DNA from: Arthrobacter sp. S41
Lineage (GTDB): Bacteria > Actinomycetota > Actinomycetes > Actinomycetales > Micrococcaceae
Assembly (NCBI RefSeq): GCF_004320535.1
Contig: NZ_SIHY01000001.1
Span: 2,046,001 to 2,110,000 of the forward strand
DNA length: 64,000 nucleotides
Direction: 5' to 3'
Positions 40,769 to 63,333 of the stretch are shown here, in pieces. The notes beneath the pieces are model-generated. The model saw only the letters and a list, made by a program, of their open reading frames with translations. It searched no databases and was not told where the DNA came from. The translations under genes and the position numbers were made by a program. Numbering within the stretch: position 1 is the first letter of the stretch; every line of letters starts with the position of its first letter.

Positions 40769-41641
40769 CTAGCGAAGAACTACGGTGCGCGAACCGTCGA
40801 GGAAGACTCGATCTTCACAGTGCCAGCGCACTGCGTCCGAGAGCGCCTTGCACTCGGTATCGCGGCCGGCGGCAACTAGGTGTTCGGGTTCGTAGCTGTG
40901 GTCAACTTCCTGAACACGCTGGGTGATGATTGGCCCTTCATCCAGCTCGCTGTTGACGTAGTGAGCGGTAGCGCCCACGGTTTTTACGCCACGTTCAAAT
41001 GCCTGGTGGTACGGCTTAGCGCCCTTGAACGAAGGCAGGAAGGAGTGGTGAATATTGATCGCACGGCCATTGAGCTTGCGGGTCAAGTCATCGGAGAGCA
41101 CCTGCATGTAGCGAGCGAGCACCACAAGATCCACGTCAAAGCGATCCACCAGTTCCATCAGCTTGTCTTCGGCCTCTGGCTTCGTCGCTGCGGTGACTGG
41201 AACATGGAAGAACGGAATACCGTTCCATTCAACCTGCTGACGGTGATCTGGGTGATTGGAAACAACCGCAGCAATTTCTACCGGAAGCTCCCCCATGCGG
41301 GCACGGAAGAGTAGGTCATGCAGGCAGTGGCCGAACTTGGAGACCATGATCAGCACGCGCTTTTTCTGGCCCGCTGGGCGTAGGCCCCACTTGGCGTCGT
41401 GTTCTTCAGCCAGGTTTTTCAGGTTGGATTCTAGGTCTGCGATAGCGATTTCATTATTGTCGCTGTCCGCAACCTCAAATTCGATGCGCAGGAAGTAAGT
41501 GCGTGAGCGCTGATCATCGTGCTGCTTGAGTTCGCGAATATCTCCATGATGATCAAGTAGCAGACCGGTGACCGCATGCACGATTCCTGCGCGCTCAGCA
41601 CAGGTGAAGGTCAAGACGTATTTGTTGTTCGGTTCGGTCAT
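40769..41641 (-). CDS. purU: Formyltetrahydrofolate deformylase
   Basis: Hydrolyses 10-formyltetrahydrofolate to formate and tetrahydrofolate. The 290-residue protein has an N-terminal ACT domain (about residues 8-85, LTFTCAERAGIVHAVTGLL) and a formyltransferase-like catalytic domain with the Asn-His-Asp triad in NIHHSFLPSFKGAKPYHQAF and ELDEGPIIT. ATG at 41641 follows AGGAG by 7 nt; the longer frame to 41806 is unsupported. Its location beside betaine catabolism genes suggests a role in releasing folate loaded with C1 units from methyl-group oxidation. Confidence 0.95.
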   Translation of the reverse strand: MTEPNNKYVLTFTCAERAGIVHAVTGLLLDHHGDIRELKQHDDQRSRTYFLRIEFEVADSDNNEIAIADLESNLKNLAEEHDAKWGLRPAGQKKRVLIMVSKFGHCLHDLLFRARMGELPVEIAAVVSNHPDHRQQVEWNGIPFFHVPVTAATKPEAEDKLMELVDRFDVDLVVLARYMQVLSDDLTRKLNGRAINIHHSFLPSFKGAKPYHQAFERGVKTVGATAHYVNSELDEGPIITQRVQEVDHSYEPEHLVAAGRDTECKALSDAVRWHCEDRVFLDGSRTVVLR

Positions 41642-41991
41642 CGTGCCGCTCCTTGCGTTCGCCGAGTTAGCGCTAGCTTCGCCATGGCTCGTGGTGGTAT
41701 CTGAGTTCAAGATTGGTGGCGTGTGATGGTCAGAGATCTTTGAGAACTCCGTCGATTCCTGACTTAGCAAGTGTCTGAAAGTCTGACCATGAGACTGATA
41801 TATCAATAGCTGATCACAATACTATGTGTGTACTAGGACAGCGTCAACAACATTTCTCAACAGATTTTTAACTTCTTCATCCGCAGCACTCGCACCGCTT
41901 CCGCGGGGCAAAAATCACCCCTCGCGGTTGCAGGCGATACCCTTTGTGTAGTGGCAAGTGCGTTTTGAACAGTGAAGAAAGCGAAATATCG
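41642..41991. other. Divergent purU-GntR intergenic region
   Basis: 350 bp holding the promoters of purU and the GntR gene. AT-rich around 41790-41870. A repeated TACTA-like element (ATACTATG at about 41819 and GTACTAGG at about 41829) is the only feature noted, and may be a GntR half-site pair. No gene seen. Confidence 0.35.
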
Positions 41992-42698: not shown

Positions 42699-44522
42699 TT
42701 ACTTCCCGACACCTTCTGCCTCTAGATCTGGATCAGCAGCTGGCAGGATCACCGGTTCATCGCTGGAAACCTGAACAATAGGCTGCTCGGTGGTCATCAG
42801 GCTAAAGTGCTCACCGTCATGGCGGTCAATACCCTCATCCACGGCCTGCTCCAGAACTTCCAGCGCTACCTTGCCACGAAGCACCAAAGGATCCTTACTC
42901 AGGTCCTTCCAGATAGCCACGCAGAGCAAGAGCATGACCAGCACAAACGGTAGCGCCGCGACAATGGTGATGTTCTTTAGACCATTCAGCGCTTCTGCCG
43001 GATGCTCTCCACCGGCCAGCAGCATCACTGCGGCCACCGCCCCTACGGAGACGCCCCAGAAGATCACTGATTTCTTGGTCGGTTCTTCGGCTCCGCGTTC
43101 GCTGAGCGCACCCATCACAATCGAGGCCGAGTCAGCGCCGGTGACAAAGAAGATGGCAATCAGTATGACGGTCAAAACCATCAGTGCCGAGGCGAACCAG
43201 CCAGGTAGGTTCAGGCTGCCCAATAGCTCAAAGAGTACCGAGTCGAAGTTGATGTCCGGAGCCCCGTCCACCATCTGGGTGATCGCTTGGCCCATATCGC
43301 CCGAGCGTTCAGCACGTTCCTGAATGCCGATGGCACCGCCACCAAAAATCGCGAACCACAGCAGGGTCACTGCCGATGGAACCAGCAGTACGCCGGTGAC
43401 AAACTGACGGATGGTGCGGCCACGGGAAATGCGGGCAATAAACAGACCAACAAATGGGGTCCATGAAACCCACCAAGCCCAGTAGAAGATGGTCCACGAG
43501 GACAACCAGCTGGCCATGTCACCATCACCGGATGATGCGGTGCGTGATGCCATCTGCGGCAGATCAGCAATGAAGGATCCAACCGCGTTCGGGATAACGT
43601 TCAAGATGAACAGCGTCGGGCCGCCAATGAAGACCACCAAGGCCAGAGCGACGGCCAGCACCATGTTGATATTGGAAAGCCACTGAATTCCGCGCTCAAT
43701 ACCGGAGACTGCCGAGGCAACAAACAGAGCGGTGAGGATGGCGATGATCAAGACCAGCACGCCGGAGCCTACTGAGGACATGATCCCGGCGGACTGAATA
43801 CCGCCACCAATCTGCAATGCGCCTAGACCCAGCGAACAAGCCGAACCAAACAAGGTGGCCAAAATGGCCAGGATGTTGATGGTTTTGCCGCCCCAACCGT
43901 TGACGGCACGTTCGCCAAAAATCGAAGAAAACATTGAAGAGAATAACTGCGGGCGACCCAATCGGAAACTTCCGTACGCCATACCCAAACCAACAATTGC
44001 GTACATGGCCCAAGGGAAAAGCGTCCAGTGGAACAGCGTGGTTCCCATAGCGGTTCCCACTGCGGCCGAGGTCTGTCCGCCGACCGTTTCAGGTGGTGGA
44101 ACCATGTAGAAGTACAGCGGTTCGCCCACACCGTAGAACACCAACCCGATGCCCATACCGGTAGCAAACATCATGGAGATCCATGAGACGGTGCTGAACT
44201 GTGGCTTTTCATCATCCTTACCCAGCGGGATGCGGCCAAAGTTCCTGGCGGCCACCACGAGAACAAAGATGGTGAAGACGGTGGCTGCGATAACAAAGAC
44301 CCAGCCGGTATTGGTGATCACCCAATCAAGGGCAGTGGATGCGACACTACCCAACCCCTCGGGCGAGATGAATCCCCAGGCGATAAACGCCAGAGTGAGA
44401 ATGCCTGCAATTCCGAACACCCAATAGTCAGTTCCGCTGTTCAGATATCTTCGTGGCTTGCGTTTGCGCGCTGTATGCAGCTCGCTCACAAGGTCTACTT
44501 CAGGTTGCTCTGTGCTCTTCAT
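42699..44522 (-). CDS. BCCT-family betaine/choline-type transporter
   Basis: A 607-residue secondary transporter with 12 membrane segments between hydrophilic termini. The BCCT signature is FYWAWWVSWTPFVGLFIARI in segment 8, and GMGIGLVFYGVGEPLYFYM in segment 3. The C-terminal tail of about 80 acidic residues is of the type that senses osmolarity in BetP. In this neighbourhood, gbcAB and dimethylglycine oxidase suggest that it supplies glycine betaine for catabolism. Confidence 0.93.
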   Translation of the reverse strand: MKSTEQPEVDLVSELHTARKRKPRRYLNSGTDYWVFGIAGILTLAFIAWGFISPEGLGSVASTALDWVITNTGWVFVIAATVFTIFVLVVAARNFGRIPLGKDDEKPQFSTVSWISMMFATGMGIGLVFYGVGEPLYFYMVPPPETVGGQTSAAVGTAMGTTLFHWTLFPWAMYAIVGLGMAYGSFRLGRPQLFSSMFSSIFGERAVNGWGGKTINILAILATLFGSACSLGLGALQIGGGIQSAGIMSSVGSGVLVLIIAILTALFVASAVSGIERGIQWLSNINMVLAVALALVVFIGGPTLFILNVIPNAVGSFIADLPQMASRTASSGDGDMASWLSSWTIFYWAWWVSWTPFVGLFIARISRGRTIRQFVTGVLLVPSAVTLLWFAIFGGGAIGIQERAERSGDMGQAITQMVDGAPDINFDSVLFELLGSLNLPGWFASALMVLTVILIAIFFVTGADSASIVMGALSERGAEEPTKKSVIFWGVSVGAVAAVMLLAGGEHPAEALNGLKNITIVAALPFVLVMLLLCVAIWKDLSKDPLVLRGKVALEVLEQAVDEGIDRHDGEHFSLMTTEQPIVQVSSDEPVILPAADPDLEAEGVGK

Positions 44523-44756: not shown

Positions 44757-45971
44757 TTAGGCGCCAATCATGCCGTGTGGATCAAGCACAAACTTCTGTG
44801 CCGCACCCTCATCAAAGGCTGCATAACCCTTCGGTGCATCCGTCAGCGCAATGGCGGTGGCATTGACGTTTTTAGCAATCGAAACCTTGTCGGAAAGGAT
44901 CGCGTGCATCAGGCCACGGTGGTACTTCATTACCGGGCACTGACCGGTGACAAAGGTGTGAGACTTAGCAAAACCAAGACCAAACCGCATGGACAGCGAA
45001 CCCTGCTTAGCAGCCTCGTCGGTGGCTCCTGGATCTCCGGTGACGTACAAGCCCGGGATGCCCAAGCTTCCGCCTGCTCGGGTGATTTCCATCAGCGAGT
45101 TCAGCACGGTGGCAGGCTGTTCCTTGCCGGCATTGTGTCCGTGTCCGCGAGCTTCAAAGCCCACCGCGTCAATACCGCAATCTACTTCTGGAGTACCGAG
45201 GATCTGCGCAATTTGCTCTCCCGGATCTCCCTTGGAGACGTCCACAGTTTCGCAACCGAAGCTGCGTGCCTGGGCCAAACGATCTTCGTTCAGATCTCCC
45301 ACGATGACCGTTGCTGCACCGAGCAACTGGGCTGAGGTTGCTGCTGCCAGACCCACTGGGCCGGCACCTGCCACGTAAACGGTGGAGCCAACGGTGACGC
45401 CAGCGCCAATGGCACCGTGATAGCCGGTGGGGAAGATGTCCGAGAGCATGGTCAGATCCAAGATCTTCTCCAGGGCCTGGTCACGGTCAGGGAACTTCAG
45501 TGCGTTCCAGTCTGCATAGGGAACCAGCACATACTCGGCCTGTCCGCCGACCCAGCCGCCCATGTCCACGTAACCGTAGGCTGAGCCCGGACGATCAGGG
45601 TTCACGTTTAAACAGATGCCGGTCTGGCCAACCTTGCAGTTGCGGCAGCGTCCGCAGGAAATGTTGAAGGGTACCGAGACCACATCACCGACCTTGAGGA
45701 ACTCAACGTCGCGACCAACTTCCACCACCTCGCCGGTGATTTCGTGGCCTAGGACCAAGCCTTCCGGTGCGGTGGTGCGTCCTCGAACCATGTGCTGGTC
45801 AGAGCCGCAAATGTTGGTGGCGATGGTCTTGAGAATGACGCCGTGGTGTACTTTTCTGCCGATGTTGGCCGGATGCACTCCCGGACCGTCTTTGAGTTCA
45901 AATTCGGGGTACGGAGTGTCGATGAGTTCGACTTTTCCGGCTCCTGCATAGCTCACTGCTAGATTGCCCAT
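44757..45971 (-). CDS. fdhA: Glutathione-independent formaldehyde dehydrogenase
   Basis: Zinc-dependent medium-chain dehydrogenase of 404 residues that oxidises formaldehyde to formate with bound NAD. The catalytic zinc Cys is in TNICGSDQHMVRG, the GHEITGEVVEVG motif follows, and the structural zinc site CGRCRNCKVGQTGIC is intact. The NAD-binding loop is YVAGAGPVGLAAA. It matches the Pseudomonas putida FdhA type, lacking a thiol cofactor requirement. Betaine demethylation by the neighbouring gbcAB releases formaldehyde, which gives it a clear role. Transcribed toward the BCCT gene and preceded by an ATTAGT/ACTAAT dyad. Confidence 0.95.
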   Translation of the reverse strand: MGNLAVSYAGAGKVELIDTPYPEFELKDGPGVHPANIGRKVHHGVILKTIATNICGSDQHMVRGRTTAPEGLVLGHEITGEVVEVGRDVEFLKVGDVVSVPFNISCGRCRNCKVGQTGICLNVNPDRPGSAYGYVDMGGWVGGQAEYVLVPYADWNALKFPDRDQALEKILDLTMLSDIFPTGYHGAIGAGVTVGSTVYVAGAGPVGLAAATSAQLLGAATVIVGDLNEDRLAQARSFGCETVDVSKGDPGEQIAQILGTPEVDCGIDAVGFEARGHGHNAGKEQPATVLNSLMEITRAGGSLGIPGLYVTGDPGATDEAAKQGSLSMRFGLGFAKSHTFVTGQCPVMKYHRGLMHAILSDKVSIAKNVNATAIALTDAPKGYAAFDEGAAQKFVLDPHGMIGA

Positions 45972-47091: not shown

Positions 47092-47193
47092 TCTCCCTAG
47101 TCTCGATTCATGCGGTAGATCACAATGGTGTTCCCTTCACCGCTATATCCACAGCAAAAGGGCGCGCATCGCCCCGTGTTTCTAGGAGTACAG

Positions 47194-48498
47194 ATGACCG
47201 CTTCGGTAGGTGCCACGCGAAGCTCGCGAGGCAAACTCGTTTCGACACTGGACACGCAACAGCTCGCCGAGATTACCGAACTCTTCTCAAATCGGCGCAA
47301 GGGCTTTTCACTCGAAGCCCCCTTCTACACCGACCCCGCAATCTTCAAAGTAGAAATGGAAGCCGTCTTCGGCACCCACTGGCTTTTTGCCGCCAGCGTT
47401 GCCGAACTCCCGGAGCCCGGCGACTACGTCACCTTGGATTACGGACCCCACTCACTGATCGTGCTGCGCACCGATGACGGCGGAGTCAACGTCCTACACA
47501 ACGTCTGCCGCCACCGCGGAGCCCGCGTACTTACCTCTAGTTCGGGCAGCACCGGCAATCTGGTCTGTGGCTACCACTCGTGGACCTACTCGCCAGAAGG
47601 CAACCTAATCCACGCCTCCTCCCCGGGTGAAATCGACTTCGACAAAAACTGCTTTGCGCTCAAGCGTGCCCACGGCCGCATCCATGCTGGCCTAATCTTT
47701 GTCTCCATCGCTGACACGCCACCGGCTGACTTTGATGATGTCGCCAAAATCTTTGAACCATACCTCGCTCCTCATGATCTGGGCAGCTCAAAGGTCGCCT
47801 ACCAGCAGGACATCATTGAAGAAGGTAATTGGAAGCTGGTGATGGAGAACAATCGCGAGTGCTACCACTGCGATGGCCACCCAGAGCTAGCCTGTTCCCT
47901 GTTCCCCACCTGGGGTCTCACCGACGAACTGGTCCCATCACATTTAGAAGAAGTCTGGGAACGCAACAAGAGTGCCCAAGCCGCATTGGAAGAACGCTGC
48001 CGCCGTTATGGATTGCCCTTTGAAGTGGTAGAAGAACTTGATACCCGCATCGCCGGCATCCGCATCTCGCGCGAATCCTTGGACGGAGACGGAGAATCCT
48101 TCTCCGCCGATGGCCGCCGACTGTCCAAGAAGCTACTGGGCGACCTGCGCGACTTCCGCCTGGGCCGCTGCTCCATGCACCTACAGCCAAACTCGTGGTT
48201 CCACTTCCAGTCCGACCACGTGATCACCTTCGCCGCCTACCCGATCAATGAACACCAGACCCTAGTGCGCACCACCTGGCTGGTGGCCGACGACGCGGTA
48301 GAGGGCGTCGACTACGACCTGGAAAAGCTGACCTACACCTGGAAGCAGACCAACCTGCAGGACAAGGCCTTTGTGGAACTGTGCCAAACCGGAGCCGGCA
48401 GCCCTGCCTACCAGCAAGGCCCCTACATGAAGAGCGAATACCAGGTCGAAGCCTTCATCAGCTGGTACACCCAGCGCGTGCTGGAGCACCTGGCATGA
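47194..48498 (+). CDS. gbcA: Glycine betaine monooxygenase, Rieske oxygenase subunit
   Basis: Ring-hydroxylating-type Rieske oxygenase, 434 residues, that demethylates glycine betaine to dimethylglycine plus formaldehyde. The [2Fe-2S] ligands are CRHRGARVL and CGYHSWTY (Cys-x-His and Cys-x2-His). The mononuclear iron site is in NNRECYHCDGHPELA. ATG at 47194 was chosen, with AGGAG 5 nt upstream; the open frame to 47125 is unsupported. It overlaps gbcB by 4 bp. Stachydrine or carnitine demethylases are related enzymes, but linkage with dimethylglycine oxidase supports betaine. Confidence 0.92.
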   Translation: MTASVGATRSSRGKLVSTLDTQQLAEITELFSNRRKGFSLEAPFYTDPAIFKVEMEAVFGTHWLFAASVAELPEPGDYVTLDYGPHSLIVLRTDDGGVNVLHNVCRHRGARVLTSSSGSTGNLVCGYHSWTYSPEGNLIHASSPGEIDFDKNCFALKRAHGRIHAGLIFVSIADTPPADFDDVAKIFEPYLAPHDLGSSKVAYQQDIIEEGNWKLVMENNRECYHCDGHPELACSLFPTWGLTDELVPSHLEEVWERNKSAQAALEERCRRYGLPFEVVEELDTRIAGIRISRESLDGDGESFSADGRRLSKKLLGDLRDFRLGRCSMHLQPNSWFHFQSDHVITFAAYPINEHQTLVRTTWLVADDAVEGVDYDLEKLTYTWKQTNLQDKAFVELCQTGAGSPAYQQGPYMKSEYQVEAFISWYTQRVLEHLA

Positions 48499-49883
48499 AC
48501 AAAGGCACGACCGTGGTAGGCCCGTCCACCGCGCAGCGCATCCGCGGATTGGAAATGCCGTGGAACCGGGTACTGCGCAGCCCCGAGCAGCCAGCCACCG
48601 CGGCCAAGGCGCTCGGTCCGTGGCACCCGCAGGAATTTTTAGCCGAGTGTGTGCAGAACATCGAGGAAGCCGGCGGGCTGATGACCTTTGTCTTCCGCCG
48701 CGTGGACGGCGCCCCGTTGGCCTTCCGCGCCGGTCAGTACCTGAACATCGCTTTCCCGGTCTACGGAGAAAACGAAGAGACGGTTGATCGCAGCTACTCA
48801 ATTTCTAGCGCTCCGACCGTGCCCTGGACCTTTAATATCAGCATTAAGCGCGACGCTAAGGGATTGGTGTCCAACTGGGCTCACGAAAACCTGCGCCCGG
48901 GCATGGTGCTGGATATGCTCGGACCGGTGGGTGCCTTCCACCTCGGTGACTCGGACCGTCGAGCCCGCTACCTCTTTTTGGCAGCAGGAGCAGGCGTCAC
49001 CCCGATCATGTCCATGGTGCGCACCATTCACACCCTGCCAGGCCAGGCCGATGTGATTGTGCTCTGCCACGGCACCGTCCCAGGAGACTTTCCCTTCTGG
49101 CAGGAGCTGGAATATATCTCCAAGGTTGATACCCGCATCAAGGTGTACTACTCCCTAGGAGACCGCGACAAACCCAAAAATTGGAAGGGTTACACCGGCC
49201 GACTGTCGGCTTCCATGATTGATGCGGTGGCCCCCGATGCCAATGGACGCAAGGTTTTTGCCTGTGGACCCGAAGGCTACTTAAACTCCGCAACCCAGCT
49301 TTTGCATGATGTCGGCGTGGATGACACCTCGGTCTTTATGGAGTTTTTCTCTGGCGACCGCAAAACCTTACTGGAATACCAGAAGGAAATTGTGCTCGCC
49401 GAGTCCATCGCCGAGGAAGTGGCCGAGTCGGTGGAAGAGTTCTACGAGAGCCAACCACCAGAACTTGGCATGTACGAACCGGAATACGATGAGACCGGGA
49501 CCCTCCAGTCGGTTGGCCAAGAGCTGATCGCGGTGGATTCTGCCGCACCGATTCCCCCACCAGAACCGGTTGACCCACTGTTGCCGCCAGATACCTCGGA
49601 CTACGAGTGCGTCGGTGAAGGCAACATCACCATGAGCTTTGTGCGCTCCAAACTCAACGTGCTGATCAACCCGGAGCAGAAGATTCTCGGTGTGGCCAAA
49701 AATGCCGGGGTACGTATCGCCGCCAACTGCCAAGAAGGCATGTGTGGCTCATGCAAGGTCATCAAACTTTCCGGCGAGGTCACCATGAATCATCAAGGCG
49801 GCATCCGCGCCCGCGAAATTGCGGCCGGCAAGTTTTTGCCTTGTTGTTCCACCGCCTCTTCGGATCTGGTCATCGACGCCTAG
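48495..49883 (+). CDS. gbcB: Glycine betaine monooxygenase, FAD/2Fe-2S reductase subunit
   Basis: Electron donor to GbcA, 462 residues, with three domains: an FAD-binding barrel (about 55-150; RSYSISSAP), an NAD-binding domain (about 155-265; AAGAGVTPIMSM and CGPEGYL) and a C-terminal plant-type [2Fe-2S] ferredoxin (about 375-462) with CQEGMCGSCKV and a final Cys-Cys pair. A linker of about 100 acidic residues separates the reductase from the ferredoxin and is longer than in many relatives. ATG at 48495 overlaps the gbcA stop by 4 bp. Confidence 0.92.
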   Translation: MNKGTTVVGPSTAQRIRGLEMPWNRVLRSPEQPATAAKALGPWHPQEFLAECVQNIEEAGGLMTFVFRRVDGAPLAFRAGQYLNIAFPVYGENEETVDRSYSISSAPTVPWTFNISIKRDAKGLVSNWAHENLRPGMVLDMLGPVGAFHLGDSDRRARYLFLAAGAGVTPIMSMVRTIHTLPGQADVIVLCHGTVPGDFPFWQELEYISKVDTRIKVYYSLGDRDKPKNWKGYTGRLSASMIDAVAPDANGRKVFACGPEGYLNSATQLLHDVGVDDTSVFMEFFSGDRKTLLEYQKEIVLAESIAEEVAESVEEFYESQPPELGMYEPEYDETGTLQSVGQELIAVDSAAPIPPPEPVDPLLPPDTSDYECVGEGNITMSFVRSKLNVLINPEQKILGVAKNAGVRIAANCQEGMCGSCKVIKLSGEVTMNHQGGIRAREIAAGKFLPCCSTASSDLVIDA

Positions 49884-49922: not shown

Positions 49923-52451
<2,529 letters not shown>

Positions 52452-58090: not shown

Positions 58091-58978
58091 TTACCGGCGT
58101 GTGCTCATGGACTCTCCTCTCCACATGATCGTCTGGCAAACTTTTGTTGCTGCCTGCACGGTGTGCAGCAAAAGTAAGGCGGTGGTCACCGTTCCCACAC
58201 CGCCAGGTACTGGGCTCAGCGCGCGAACCTTGGGTTGCACCGAAGCGGTGTGGACGTCGCCAACTAGTTGCCCATCGTCATCCACGTTCGTTCCTACATC
58301 GATAACCACCGACGAGTCAGCCACTTCATGGGCGGTGAGCAGGTTGGCGCGTCCAACAGCCATGACCGTCACCGCAGCCGTCTTGGTGAATTCGGGCAGT
58401 TCTGCGGTTTGCGAATGACAGATGCTCACCGTGGCATCACGCTGTAACAACAGCTGAGCCAAGGGTTTACCCACGACCGCTGAGCGTCCGACTACTGCCA
58501 CATGGTGGCCCGCGAGCGGGATCCGATAATGCTCAAGAATCTCAATCACCGAACGCGCGGTCGCTGGAGCAAAAGCAGGCTGGCCCACAGTTAGTCGGCC
58601 AAGACTCAATGGATTGGCCCCGTCAATATGTTTGGTCGGGTCGATCAACTGCACCAACGCCGCAGCATCCACGCCACTGGGTACCGGGGTCTGCAGGATG
58701 ATGCCGTGGACTGCTTCGTCCCCGTTCAAGGCCTCAATGGTGGCAGTAAGTTGCGCCTGGGTACCGTCCGGCAGTTCCAGCACTTGACATTCAACGCCTT
58801 GTGCAGCGGCGGCTCGCTCGATGGAGCGCACATACCATGTGGTCGCTTCGTTCCGGGTCGCGAGGACGACCGCTAACCGTGCACTGAAGCTATCACGGTT
58901 CAGACCGACTACCAACTGAGCGGTCCGCGCCCGAATCTCATCAGCTACCGGTTTCCCACTCAAACGTTGTGCCGTCAT
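58091..58978 (-). CDS. FolD-like methylenetetrahydrofolate dehydrogenase lacking the cyclohydrolase lysine
   Basis: A 295-residue FolD-family protein. Normal FolD oxidises 5,10-methylene-THF to methenyl-THF and hydrolyses that to 10-formyl-THF. The folate-site residues Tyr49, Gln96 and Asp119 and the NADP loop GRSAVVGKPLAQ are present, as is the end PVPGGVGTVTTALL. The catalytic lysine of the Y-V-x-x-K motif (E. coli Lys54) is Ile53 here (WYVRSIERA). In characterised homologues this lysine is essential for cyclohydrolase but not for dehydrogenase. The gene overlaps the fchA-like gene by 4 bp, so that protein may provide the missing step (inference). Confidence 0.85.
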   Translation of the reverse strand: MTAQRLSGKPVADEIRARTAQLVVGLNRDSFSARLAVVLATRNEATTWYVRSIERAAAAQGVECQVLELPDGTQAQLTATIEALNGDEAVHGIILQTPVPSGVDAAALVQLIDPTKHIDGANPLSLGRLTVGQPAFAPATARSVIEILEHYRIPLAGHHVAVVGRSAVVGKPLAQLLLQRDATVSICHSQTAELPEFTKTAAVTVMAVGRANLLTAHEVADSSVVIDVGTNVDDDGQLVGDVHTASVQPKVRALSPVPGGVGTVTTALLLLHTVQAATKVCQTIMWRGESMSTRR

Positions 58979-59610
58979 ACCGTCACCGCCGAGCGCACCT
59001 CGCAGCTGAGCTTTTGAGCTTGACCGATCATCTCACTGGCTAGGTTCGTGACCAGACCCAGGCGCTCCCGCTCTACTTCATCCTTGATGGCAGCGATATT
59101 CATTTCTAAGGTGACCAGCGCGGTTCCTAAAGCAGCGCGCGCAGACTCCCCTGCGGCAGCAATATCACTAGAAACGGCGCGATTTGCTATAGGCAATAAG
59201 TCTTGGGCAAGGTTGATGATTTTAGAAGCGATGTCAACCGTGGATATCAAAGGAGCGGCTGCTTCAATGGTGGCCTTGCGAATCGTTGTACTTCGAATGA
59301 GCTTCTGCTCTTCATCATCTTTTGGCAAAAAATACGCATCACTGAGCAGTCCGAACAGCCGCTCATCTTCTTCAGCGGCGTGTATTGCTTCTCGCATATG
59401 CTGCTTTGCTCTTTGTGCGATGAGCTCAGCTTGCTCTTGAACCTCGACATACCGTGGGCCGGAGGTAAATTCTGCCACCATTGACACCAGTGCGGCGCCC
59501 TGGGCCGCATGCAGTGCTGCCGCCGCCCCTCCGCCTGGAGCGGGCGCTCTAGAAGCGAGCCGCTGAAGATAACTGGTGACAGTTTCAGTGGTGATCATGG
59601 AATATCCCAT
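58975..59610 (-). CDS. FchA/FTCD-type cyclodeaminase-cyclohydrolase family protein
   Basis: A 211-residue helical protein of the formimidoyl-THF cyclodeaminase/methenyl-THF cyclohydrolase family (FTCD C-terminal domain, FchA). The N-terminal signature PAPGGGAAAALHAAQGAALV is diagnostic; further helices include DEERLFGLLSDAY and MNIAAIKDEVERE. In organisms with FchA it hydrolyses methenyl-THF to 10-formyl-THF. An ATG at 59598 is an alternative start. It is the first gene of a two-gene operon with the FolD-like protein (4-bp overlap). Confidence 0.82.
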   Translation of the reverse strand: MGYSMITTETVTSYLQRLASRAPAPGGGAAAALHAAQGAALVSMVAEFTSGPRYVEVQEQAELIAQRAKQHMREAIHAAEEDERLFGLLSDAYFLPKDDEEQKLIRSTTIRKATIEAAAPLISTVDIASKIINLAQDLLPIANRAVSSDIAAAGESARAALGTALVTLEMNIAAIKDEVERERLGLVTNLASEMIGQAQKLSCEVRSAVTV

Positions 59611-59878: not shown

Positions 59879-60784
59879 CTATTCAATCCAAGTCTTACCC
59901 ATGTCAACCAGTAACGTCTGGAACGCGTTTTCTGCTGGTGCGCGAACACGATCCCTGCGCTGAGCCAAGACCACACTTCGCGCTGCGGCACCCGAACCAA
60001 GAGAAAGGATTTTGACGCCTGGATGTGGGTTCATCACCGCGGACTGCGGCGCCAAGGCAATGCCCAGTCCAACAGAAACCATCGCTTGAGCTTCTTGATA
60101 ATCGTTAGCCTGGAAGGAGATCTTTGGCGAGAAACCTGCGGCGTTGCAAGAGCGCTCTAGGAGCTCAGCAACCGGATGCATGTTTGCTCTGACGATCCAG
60201 TGATCGCCTGACGTGGCAGCCATATCCACTTCATCAAACTCAGCTAAAGGGTGGTCGGCACCAACAACCAAAACAGTAGGTTCGGTAAACAACGTGGTGA
60301 GTTCAAAGTCCGTCCGGTTCAGCGGCATCCAGTCATATTCCCACAGCAGACCAAGGGAGATTTCGCCACGGGAGAGCAACCCCATAAGCTCCTGCAATCT
60401 CGTACTACGCACGTCGAGATTAATCGACGGGTACATCTTGCGGAACTTGCTGATGACCTGAGGCAAGAACGAACTACCCAGCGTTGGGAAGGTACCCAAA
60501 CTCAAGCTGCCACTTTTCAGTCCTGCCAGCTGGTCTAAGTCCGCTATGGCCGCATCCATTCGACGCAAGATCGAGCGTGCGTGACCGGCAAGGATATGTC
60601 CTGCATCCGTGGGAACCATGCCGCGCGCATGTCGCTGCAGCAGCGGTTGCCCCACTTCTTCTTCCAGCTTTCGCAACTGCTGGGAGACGCCAGATGGAGT
60701 GTAAAAAAGTTCATCAGCAGCCGCCGTGACCGATCCGCCTTCTACGACGGCGAGCAGTATTTGCAGTCTTTTGATGTCGAGCAC
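59879..60784 (-). CDS. LysR-family regulator of the prpF-tct locus
   Basis: A 301-residue LysR regulator: N-terminal helix-turn-helix (SVTAAADELFYTPSGVSQQLRKL, core AADELFYTPSGVSQQL) and an effector-binding domain from about residue 90 (FPTLGSSFLPQVISKF). It is divergent from prpF with 279 bp between, the usual arrangement for a regulator of a tricarboxylate uptake operon. The intergenic region is AT-rich at about 60905-60965. Its likely ligand is a tricarboxylate (inference). Confidence 0.86.
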   Translation of the reverse strand: MLDIKRLQILLAVVEGGSVTAAADELFYTPSGVSQQLRKLEEEVGQPLLQRHARGMVPTDAGHILAGHARSILRRMDAAIADLDQLAGLKSGSLSLGTFPTLGSSFLPQVISKFRKMYPSINLDVRSTRLQELMGLLSRGEISLGLLWEYDWMPLNRTDFELTTLFTEPTVLVVGADHPLAEFDEVDMAATSGDHWIVRANMHPVAELLERSCNAAGFSPKISFQANDYQEAQAMVSVGLGIALAPQSAVMNPHPGVKILSLGSGAAARSVVLAQRRDRVRAPAENAFQTLLVDMGKTWIE

Positions 60785-61063: not shown

Positions 61064-62422
61064 TTGAAACAAGCAGTCACAGCGACTTGGATGCGCGGAG
61101 GTACCAGCAAATGCTGGGTCTTCGAAAAAAGCGCACTGCAAGTCCCCGGGTACACTACCGATGAGGTGTTGCTTCGCCTCTTTGGTTCTCCCGACTCCCG
61201 CCAAATCGATGGCGTTGGTGGAGGCAGCTCAACGACGAGCAAAGCCGTCATCCTGGAACCAAGCCAGGAACCAGGAATCGATGTTGAGTACACCTTTGCC
61301 GAAGTCGGAATCGACCAAGCTGTCGTAGATTGGGGAAGCAACTGCGGAAATTGCTCCGCCGTCATCGCTCCTTACGCCCTGAAACGGGGCTGGGTTCAGG
61401 CCAAGGACCAGTTTGTCACCGTGCACATTCGCAACACCAATACGGGACAGCTGCTCGTCGAACAAATGAACCTCGACGGTTCAGAATTTTCGGCCCTCAT
61501 CCCCGGCGTCCCTTTCACCGCCCAAGGCGTTGAGATAGGTTTCCTCGATCCGGCCGGTGCCACCACCGGGAAGCTGTTTCCTGATAGAAACGAAACGTCA
61601 ACGCTGAGCATTCACGGCGACACGTCGGAGCAAGTTCAGGCAACGCTCATCGATGCCGGCGCACCCATCGTCATCATTGATGCGCAGTCCGCACGACTTG
61701 AAGGCATTGAGTTTTCACACTGGCTCACCGAGTCACTGGATGAAATGCCACGCCTTGACCGCATCCGCCGTGCAGGCGCGGTGGCCATGGGGCTAGCCGA
61801 CTCTCCAGCCCAAGCCGAACGGGCCATCCCCAAGCTGGCCATCGTCCAAGCCGCCGACACACAGAACCACAACGACCTACTGGTCATGATGCTCTCCATG
61901 GGTGCTCCGCATCCAGCCTTGGCCATCACCGGAAGCATTGGGCTGACCCTGGCAGCCCAACATCAAGGAACCGTGCTGGCAAAGCTGCTGAAGCAGACGC
62001 CCGGCGAGTTCCTCAAACTACAAACACCTGCCGGTCAGATCACTACCTGGCAGCGCCAGATCGACGGCACATTGGTTGTGGGCACCACCCGCACCGCTCG
62101 AGTATTAGCCGAATCTACGCTCAGTTTTGACCCCATCAGCACAGAACATGGTGAACCAACCGTGACTCATCTTGAACTTCCCGACGCCTCAGAAGATCAG
62201 CTTCTGCCCGACCCAGAACCTCATCGTCGCCGCACCGTCTTCGCATCGGTGACAGCCTTCGCGGTGCTCGGTCTGGGAGCTACCCTCGTGGGTGGAGGAT
62301 TACTGAACCCACCAGCCACCACGGCCGACGGTGACTATTCAGGGAAACCATTGAGATGGTCATTCCACTGGCCGAAGGTGGAGGCACCGATACCTGGGCC
62401 CGATTTGTCGGCCAAGAACTAG
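61064..62422 (+). CDS. prpF: PrpF-family isomerase, reading through into a TctC-type leader
   Basis: The first about 360 residues form a PrpF/methylaconitate-isomerase-type protein: TATWMRGGTSKCWVFEKS at the N terminus, DGVGGGSSTTSKAVIL, WGSNCGNCSA and the late GTTRTARVLAES. Such proteins act on aconitate-like acids. Start is TTG at 61064. The frame does not stop after the PrpF domain but continues into a basic-hydrophobic leader (HRRRTVFASVTAFAVLGLGA) that belongs to the following TctC-type binding protein, then runs out of frame near 62345. A GTGA at 62162 could mark a former coupled start for tctC. Confidence 0.8.
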   Translation: MKQAVTATWMRGGTSKCWVFEKSALQVPGYTTDEVLLRLFGSPDSRQIDGVGGGSSTTSKAVILEPSQEPGIDVEYTFAEVGIDQAVVDWGSNCGNCSAVIAPYALKRGWVQAKDQFVTVHIRNTNTGQLLVEQMNLDGSEFSALIPGVPFTAQGVEIGFLDPAGATTGKLFPDRNETSTLSIHGDTSEQVQATLIDAGAPIVIIDAQSARLEGIEFSHWLTESLDEMPRLDRIRRAGAVAMGLADSPAQAERAIPKLAIVQAADTQNHNDLLVMMLSMGAPHPALAITGSIGLTLAAQHQGTVLAKLLKQTPGEFLKLQTPAGQITTWQRQIDGTLVVGTTRTARVLAESTLSFDPISTEHGEPTVTHLELPDASEDQLLPDPEPHRRRTVFASVTAFAVLGLGATLVGGGLLNPPATTADGDYSGKPLRWSFHWPKVEAPIPGPDLSAKN

Positions 62423-63333
62423 CTCAAGACATTCCCGGGCAGCCCGGATTCGCGCCAGTCAACGAGGCCGGCGGTGAAGGCATTACCGGGAGTAACCGCT
62501 TCGCCTCCTCCGCCTCGGATGACGGGACCGAGCTACTGGTCAGCACCGCCACTACGGTGGTCCCTTGGGTCTTGGACCGAAACGTGGTGAAGTACTCGTT
62601 CGAGGATCTTACACCGGTTCTGGTCAACGGCACCGGCGGGGTGATCTACGCTCGCACGGCCGCTGGTGTGACGTCCCCCAAGGACCTGACCGACCGGCAG
62701 AAGCCATTGGTCTTTGGCGGCATTTCAGCTACCGGCCTTGATCTCACTACGCTGGTTGCCTTCGATCTCTTGCAAGCAGACATCTCGGCAACCTTCGGCT
62801 TCGAAGGACGCGGACCAGTCAACTTAGCCCTACAACGTGGAGAAGTAGATATCGACTACACCACCACCTCCTCGTATCAGTCCGCCGTTGAGCCGAGCGA
62901 AAAGGACGGGTCAGCTACCGTACTGATGTCCTTTGGCCAGCTCGATGAGAATGGGAAAGTTATCCGTGATCCCAACTTCACGGACACGCCCACAGTGACC
63001 GAGGTGTATCAGCAACTGCATGGAAAAGCACCTGAAGGGCCTAAATTTGAGGCCTACAAAACTCTGCTCGGCTTGACCTACACCTACCAAAAGGGACTCT
63101 GGGCACCCAAGGATGCACCCGCAGAAGCAGTGACGTTGCTGCGCGACTCCGCCCATGAGCTTTCAGACGATAAAGAATTCAACAAAAAGGCCGCCGAGGT
63201 ACTCGGTGGTTACCCGATCGTCGCTGATCAAGACCTATCCGAACGCGTTAAAAACGTTTACACCGTGACCGATGAGACCAAGAGCTATGTCACTACCTTG
63301 CTCAAGGACTCCTACGGCATCGAATTAGATTAA
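62162..63333 (+). pseudogene. tctC: TctC-type tricarboxylate-binding protein, frameshifted
   Basis: The binding domain of a tripartite tricarboxylate transporter receptor: VIPLAEGGGTDTWARFVGQE, VFGGISATGLDLTTLVAFD and a C-terminal EVLGGYPIVADQD. It is in a different frame from its own leader, which is fused in frame to PrpF. The join would be in frame if the A3 run at 62345-62347 had one more A, giving SGKTIEMVIPLAEGG, the usual TctC start of the mature protein. ATG at 62356 could start a leaderless product that would not be exported. Sequencing error is possible, but the tctA gene beside it is also broken. Confidence 0.72.

Follow-up and report, generated by a model that had tools for sequence, protein, structure and literature searches.

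A FolD-like protein without the catalytic lysine and an adjoining FchA-like protein, a probable split dehydrogenase/cyclohydrolase pair in Arthrobacter and other actinobacteria

The window, a stretch of 64,000 nucleotides from Arthrobacter sp. S41 that was analysed as a whole, includes two overlapping genes, folD and fchA, whose products very likely constitute a split version of the bifunctional FolD enzyme, probably with a catabolic role in glycine-betaine breakdown. The FolD protein (FolD-I53) would act as a methylene-tetrahydrofolate (methylene-THF) dehydrogenase, the cyclohydrolase function of bifunctional FolD having been lost, and FchA would hydrolyse its product, methenyl-THF, to 10-formyl-THF. 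A preliminary description of this DNA had proposed such a reduction of FolD to a dehydrogenase, with a separate protein taking over the second step. At the level of sequence the proposal is supported by the co-occurrence of lysine loss with an adjacent FchA and by 14 genomes in which a FolD of this type is the only one.

The fchA-folD pair and the missing lysine

Both genes are on the minus strand, where fchA (59610-58975), coding for a predicted methenyl-THF cyclohydrolase of 211 amino acids, precedes folD (58978-58091), coding for a predicted methylene-THF dehydrogenase without cyclohydrolase of 295 amino acids. Both are open reading frames and overlap by 4 bp, the coding strand at the joint being GTATGACG. 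FchA matches FTCD_C (PF04961) with 144.8 bits against a cut-off of 24.5 and is a single domain, not fused to a formiminotransferase. The gene of a LysR-type regulator (59879..60784, minus strand) lies upstream of fchA-folD on the same strand, and three close relatives (L132, L133, L134) have an 85-97% identical counterpart ahead of the pair. Farther along, at 61064-63333, a PrpF and a TctC-like open reading frame overlap in different frames, which could be a frame-shifted fusion or a sequencing error; in L133 and L134 both matches are inside one open reading frame of about 774 codons.

The window FolD has both FolD Pfam domains, PF00763 and PF02882, above cut-off (90.1 and 183.3 bits), and its AlphaFold model (mean pLDDT 92.8) has the FolD fold, with FolD structures as Foldseek matches. 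Alignment showed that Tyr49, Gln96 and Asp119 are retained and that, in the stretch YVRSI, Ile53 occupies the position of E. coli Lys54 (E. coli numbering as in PMC3338484 and PMC5688156). Compared with bifunctional FolDs, namely the E. coli enzyme (1b0a) and the second copy of the same genome (L001), the window protein shares the fold as well as the folate-site Tyr, Gln and Asp but has Ile in place of the catalytic Lys. The Lys of the YxxxK motif, expected in a bifunctional FolD, is absent, and none of the curated NCBIfam bifunctional FolD models was passed; the best of 30, among the matches listed, gave 251.5 bits against a cut-off of 421. These results agree with the preliminary description as to the replaced lysine, the three conserved residues and the 4-bp overlap with a gene of the FTCD/FchA family. 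A chance or misread residue was ruled out by the alignment and by recurrence across genomes, and a pseudogene by the intact and conserved reading frame. The preliminary description also held that the lysine is needed for the cyclohydrolase and not for the dehydrogenase activity. The first part stands, while the second was too strong, because the E. coli K54N mutant described in PMC5688156 has undetectable cyclohydrolase and keeps only about 19% of the dehydrogenase.

Distribution of the pair and its exceptions

Within the genus, a Lys-less FolD with an adjoining strong FTCD_C gene occurs in 14 of 18 genomes, and the other four (G001, G003, G009, G010) have neither; three of these hold a weaker FTCD_C. 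A second, weaker FTCD_C family of the genus (L017-L024) scores 63 to 96 bits and has no FolD in its 1.5 kb flanks. A survey of 394 genomes of the class found an FTCD_C match in 66 and a FolD match in 388. When scored against a Lys-less profile, the FolD matches listed fell into two ranges, at least 343 bits (68 genomes) and at most 292 bits. Unfused FTCD_C proteins of at least 138 bits were present in 49 of the 394 genomes, and 47 of these 49 have a Lys-less FolD. The FTCD_C gene is adjacent to folD on the same strand in 44 of the 47, oppositely oriented at a distance of about 0.9 kb in G378, and unlinked in G048 and G124; the two genomes in which no Lys-less FolD was found are G107, where the FTCD_C gene is at a contig end, and G407. 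In this tally, five FTCD_C proteins fused to a formiminotransferase-like part, FTCD_C hits below 138 bits, and G214 were set aside and counted as having no FchA. The FTCD_C match of G214 spans 113 of 182 positions, and the neighbouring Ile-type FolD is gapped at the Asp column. The resulting table of Lys-less FolD versus strong FTCD_C (47, 21, 2, 324) has an odds ratio of 363, and its p-value is unusable because the genomes share ancestry.

The residue at the lysine position was read in 228 FolD stretches, which were reduced to 179 distinct rows. The preliminary description had suggested aligning FolD homologues at FolD-FchA neighbours, and all 60 rows with an fchA hit within 70 bp proved to have Ile (56) or Leu (4), none Lys. 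Among 38 rows with an FchA hit farther off in the stretch, there were 32 Ile, 1 Leu, 1 Val, 1 Ala, 2 Lys (L128, at 1.9 kb, and L215, at 131 bp) and 1 not covered. The 81 rows without an FchA hit, which include ordinary FolDs fetched on purpose and Frankia-like ones, comprised 50 Lys, 15 Ile, 9 Leu, 6 Ala and 1 Gln. The absence of a hit refers here to tblastn with the window FchA and to flanks as short as about 0.5 kb, so that partners far away or of divergent sequence escape; one such row is L026, whose partner a profile search revealed. Ordinary, low-scoring actinobacterial FolDs had Lys in 40 of 40 cases sampled (17 from the same genus, 23 from the class). A scan of named genomes confirmed 378 FchA relatives. 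The best 80 of them included the one closest to the window FchA, from Glutamicibacter sp. JC586 (79% identical), and 48 had a FolD in the stretch, with 45 Ile, 2 Leu, 1 Val and no Lys.

A particular case are 14 genomes of the class, from three family codes, in which a single FolD exceeds the PF02882 cut-off and is Lys-less (G034, G048, G073, G124, G159, G189, G266, G277, G301, G317, G333, G348, G356, G378). Completeness is at least 90% in 11 of them, each has an FTCD_C protein of more than 160 bits, and no formate-THF ligase above cut-off was found in any. 10-Formyl-THF is required for formyl-Met and, by the usual route, for purines. Therefore, a separate cyclohydrolase is expected in these genomes, and the candidate in view is FchA. 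The argument is weakened by the possibility of spontaneous methenyl-THF hydrolysis, to which the authors of PMC5688156 credit the survival of E. coli mutants without cyclohydrolase. Two genomes of genus g49 (L113, L114, L130, L131) have a sole FolD of the Leu type and an unlinked FTCD_C gene, which indicates that co-occurrence does not need linkage.

Exceptions were found in both directions. A strict rule by which a Lys-less FolD always lies beside FchA was ruled out by 21 genomes without an FTCD_C match and two with unlinked FTCD_C. The 21, among the 68 Lys-less genomes of the 394 surveyed, belong to family code f25, genera g53 and g79, and some of them presumably resemble Frankia and Pseudofrankia. 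The preliminary description had named an Ile FolD with no FchA partner as evidence against its proposal. This holds in part: Ile/Leu-type proteins of this kind do exist in these 21 of 394 genomes, but none of the 21 is without an additional FolD match, so that the chemistry can still be covered. Eight of the 21 were put to PF02882 and had two or more matches above cut-off each, and the second FolD copies of eight, a set that overlaps in part with the former, were read and keep Lys. The orphan Lys-less FolDs of these genomes (L092-L112) show the active-site Tyr changed to Phe in three rows and to Ser in L112, and are perhaps drifting or doing something else. Clustering of the neighbours, with open reading frames chosen by a third-position GC score, placed a GGDEF protein cluster in 21 of the 21 orphan loci; an aminotransferase cluster was present in 17 of them.

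The converse rule, that FTCD_C in a genome means a Lys-less FolD, was ruled out by genomes of the class in which no Lys-less FolD was found and by non-actinomycete genomes that keep Lys. Among the best 80 of 378 named loci, 34 were not named as actinomycete; 24 of these genomes have a FolD match along with FTCD_C, and the residues were 11 Lys, 5 Ile, 7 Ala and 1 Gln. Many clostridial FTCD_C genes adjoin genes that, read by eye, resemble those of histidine degradation, and may therefore code for deaminases. In L215, from Clostridiales, the Lys-type FolD located near an FTCD_C hit has Glu for the conserved Gln. Seven clostridial FolDs (L223, L225-L228, L232, L235) have Ala for Lys and also lost the Gln, replaced by F, L or M, while nearly all Ile/Leu rows retain it; they may have arrived at a dehydrogenase-only enzyme along another path. 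On a quick tree of 70 representatives, made with the Lys column left out, with SH-aLRT support only and with long branches, the residue must have switched between Lys and non-Lys at least four times. One side of a branch with support 99 holds the actinobacterial Lys-less set, and the Lys-less sets of Chloroflexota and Bacillota form two further, separate groups. It looks, from these sequences, as if the lysine was lost repeatedly and by different routes.

The second step and other readings of the pair

A role of FchA as the cyclohydrolase is suggested by its closest solved relative. The AlphaFold model of the window FchA (mean pLDDT 93.2) has the Methylobacterium extorquens cyclohydrolase 7vg4 as its top Foldseek match, and a profile of 17 FTCD_C proteins gave 205.9 bits to 7vg4 versus 134 and 127.8 to cyclodeaminases, so that both sequence profile and structure model put FchA nearer to the known cyclohydrolase. 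It is improbable, then, that FchA is a formimino-THF cyclodeaminase and that the pair handles formimino one-carbon units instead of completing the FolD reaction. This reading draws on the name of the Pfam family, taken from the cyclodeaminase, on the relatives FTCD and T. maritima TM1560, and on four strong FTCD_C hits of the class that are in frame with a formiminotransferase-like N-terminus (L025, L027, L040, L044), a fifth fused one, L029, running off its contig in the same frame. It also draws on the NCBIfam FchA model NF045657, whose cut-off of 275 bits is not reached by the window FchA (119.7 bits); of two other pair partners, L048 scored 143.6 bits and L043 gave no match at 1e-40. However, in the five genomes where the fused form is present, the FolD matches all score in the low range, that of the Lys type, and if FchA were a deaminase the 14 genomes with a sole Lys-less FolD would have no visible cyclohydrolase.

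Another residue could in principle have taken over from the lysine, leaving FolD-I53 bifunctional, and the preliminary description had named this as an outcome that would count against it. We consider it very unlikely. When 113 Ile/Leu/Val rows were compared with 52 Lys rows, no position had acquired a His, Asp or Glu in at least 85% of the former. The gained residues include Thr97, Thr230, Thr266, Cys64, Asn122, Ser125 and Lys171, and in our judgement none of them is a likely replacement. The clade does show concerted changes, L97T beside the conserved Gln, C139A, P141A, G41T and Lys171 for Arg. The VGKP-loop residue Lys171 occurs in 104 of 113 rows of the Ile/Leu type, an enrichment that leaves slight room for a new base, although 10 of 52 Lys-type rows have it too and it sits in the NAD(P) domain. 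Moreover, a FolD that had remained bifunctional would leave the steady link with FchA unexplained. A shift of FolD-I53 to another pterin substrate or cofactor, with the fchA linkage reflecting that pathway, can hardly be credited: the actinobacterial Lys-less set is well apart from Lys-type FolD in the tree, but in the 127 non-Lys rows of all groups Tyr is kept in 121, Gln in 117 and Asp in 125, and 14 genomes lack any other FolD.

The division of labour proposed here, a dehydrogenase-only FolD with a separate FchA cyclohydrolase, has precedents. The FolD of Clostridium perfringens reportedly acts as a dehydrogenase only and its FchA as the cyclohydrolase, which is the same split. The impression given in the preliminary description that such a pair had not been described is thus incorrect for the principle, already published for C. 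perfringens, and holds for the actinobacterial Ile/Leu variant: titles and abstracts of the openly licensed PMC literature yielded no report that combines FchA with a Lys-less FolD, be it in actinobacteria or in betaine clusters. Since the principle was known, the present comparison adds the form found in actinobacteria, with its distribution and genomic context. The MtdA of M. extorquens is presumably not a FolD of this type. The FchA of that species (7vg4) is homologous to the window FchA, and there, as here, dehydrogenase and cyclohydrolase, MtdA and Fch, have separate genes (PMC9618320). PMC7219735 likewise mentions microorganisms whose cyclohydrolase, FchA, is a separate protein, and cites Aluri et al. 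2016 (doi 10.1099/mic.0.000209), an article on FolD and FchA of C. perfringens as dehydrogenase and cyclohydrolase; that species is an anaerobe and, by the title of the article, also has Fhs. The Lys-less clostridial FolDs fetched here, none of them that of C. perfringens itself, mostly have Ala and lost the Gln, in contrast to the Ile/Leu of the actinobacterial type.

A probable glycine-betaine setting

The preliminary description had suggested a search for a second, intact folD elsewhere in the genome, and one was found (L001). Its product has the Lys, in the sequence YVGGK, and scores 462.9 bits with one of the curated NCBIfam bifunctional models, above the cut-off of 401. Since a formate-THF ligase is encoded there as well, the cell has other routes to 10-formyl-THF than the window pair, and fchA-folD would be a second, catabolic copy.

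The pair is found 6-17 kb from glycine-betaine/dimethylglycine genes and PurU. They include a gene for a dimethylglycine-oxidase-like protein (DMGO; 49932..52451, plus strand), a function deduced from DAO, FAO_M and GCV_T domains, and that of the formyltetrahydrofolate deformylase PurU (40769..41806, minus strand; TIGR00655, 323.4 bits against a cut-off of 285.95). The DMGO gene ends 5.6 kb from folD and PurU is 16 kb from it, and they are not in one operon with the pair. The region extending from the DMGO and PurU genes to the pair also has genes for a Rieske oxygenase with a putative glycine-betaine demethylase role (47125..48498, plus strand) and, read by eye, a ferredoxin-reductase-like protein (48381..49883, plus strand) and a BCCT-type transporter-like protein (42699..44522, minus strand). 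A formaldehyde-dehydrogenase-like zinc dehydrogenase, also read by eye, is encoded at 44757..45971 on the minus strand.

This neighbourhood was compared in 55 chosen actinobacterial pair loci, 43 from the named-genome scan (including six Micrococcaceae close to the window) and 12 others. By tblastn, a DMGO relative (at least 56% identity) was present in 13, a PurU relative (at least 50%) in 14, either in 17, and neither in the stretch in 38. The order DMGO-fchA-folD-PurU was found in Mycolicibacterium wolinskyi (L141) and Rhodococcus opacus (L154), and two Saccharopolyspora loci (L139, L177) have soxA-like, SoxG, DMGO, fchA and folD genes, then serine ammonia-lyase and PurU. The Nonomuraea and Streptomyces loci within the 55 had no DMGO or PurU in the stretch, and the pair is therefore not always linked to betaine. 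Arthrobacter dimethylglycine/sarcosine clusters (Meskys et al. 2001), as summarised in PMC3534580, serve to break down sarcosine and include sarcosine oxidase, serine dehydratase and purU; that summary does not mention a Lys-less FolD or FchA.

Dimethylglycine oxidase hands its one-carbon unit to THF. If DMGO feeds THF in this way, the pair fits in as the link that turns methylene-THF into 10-formyl-THF, from which PurU would release formate. We infer that DMGO, the likely source of methylene-THF during glycine-betaine breakdown, would supply FolD-I53, which would oxidise it, that FchA would hydrolyse the resulting methenyl-THF, and that PurU, the likely sink of 10-formyl-THF, would release formate and THF. 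Thus, the window pair is probably a catabolic module that leads from methylene-THF to formate. The E. coli K54N mutant is insensitive to carolacton, whose binding uses that lysine (PMC5688156). It is conceivable, if doubtful, that the split was also selected for blindness to such natural FolD inhibitors, with FchA supplying the lost step and some lineages being inhibitor-proof.

The change from Lys to Ile or Leu provides a one-residue marker for FolDs that are probably misnamed as bifunctional. The comparisons indicate that a near-universal folate enzyme is split in several bacterial groups, in some without any other FolD. Because a subset of actinobacteria combines the split with a specific catabolic context, the reason for splitting the enzyme becomes directly testable.
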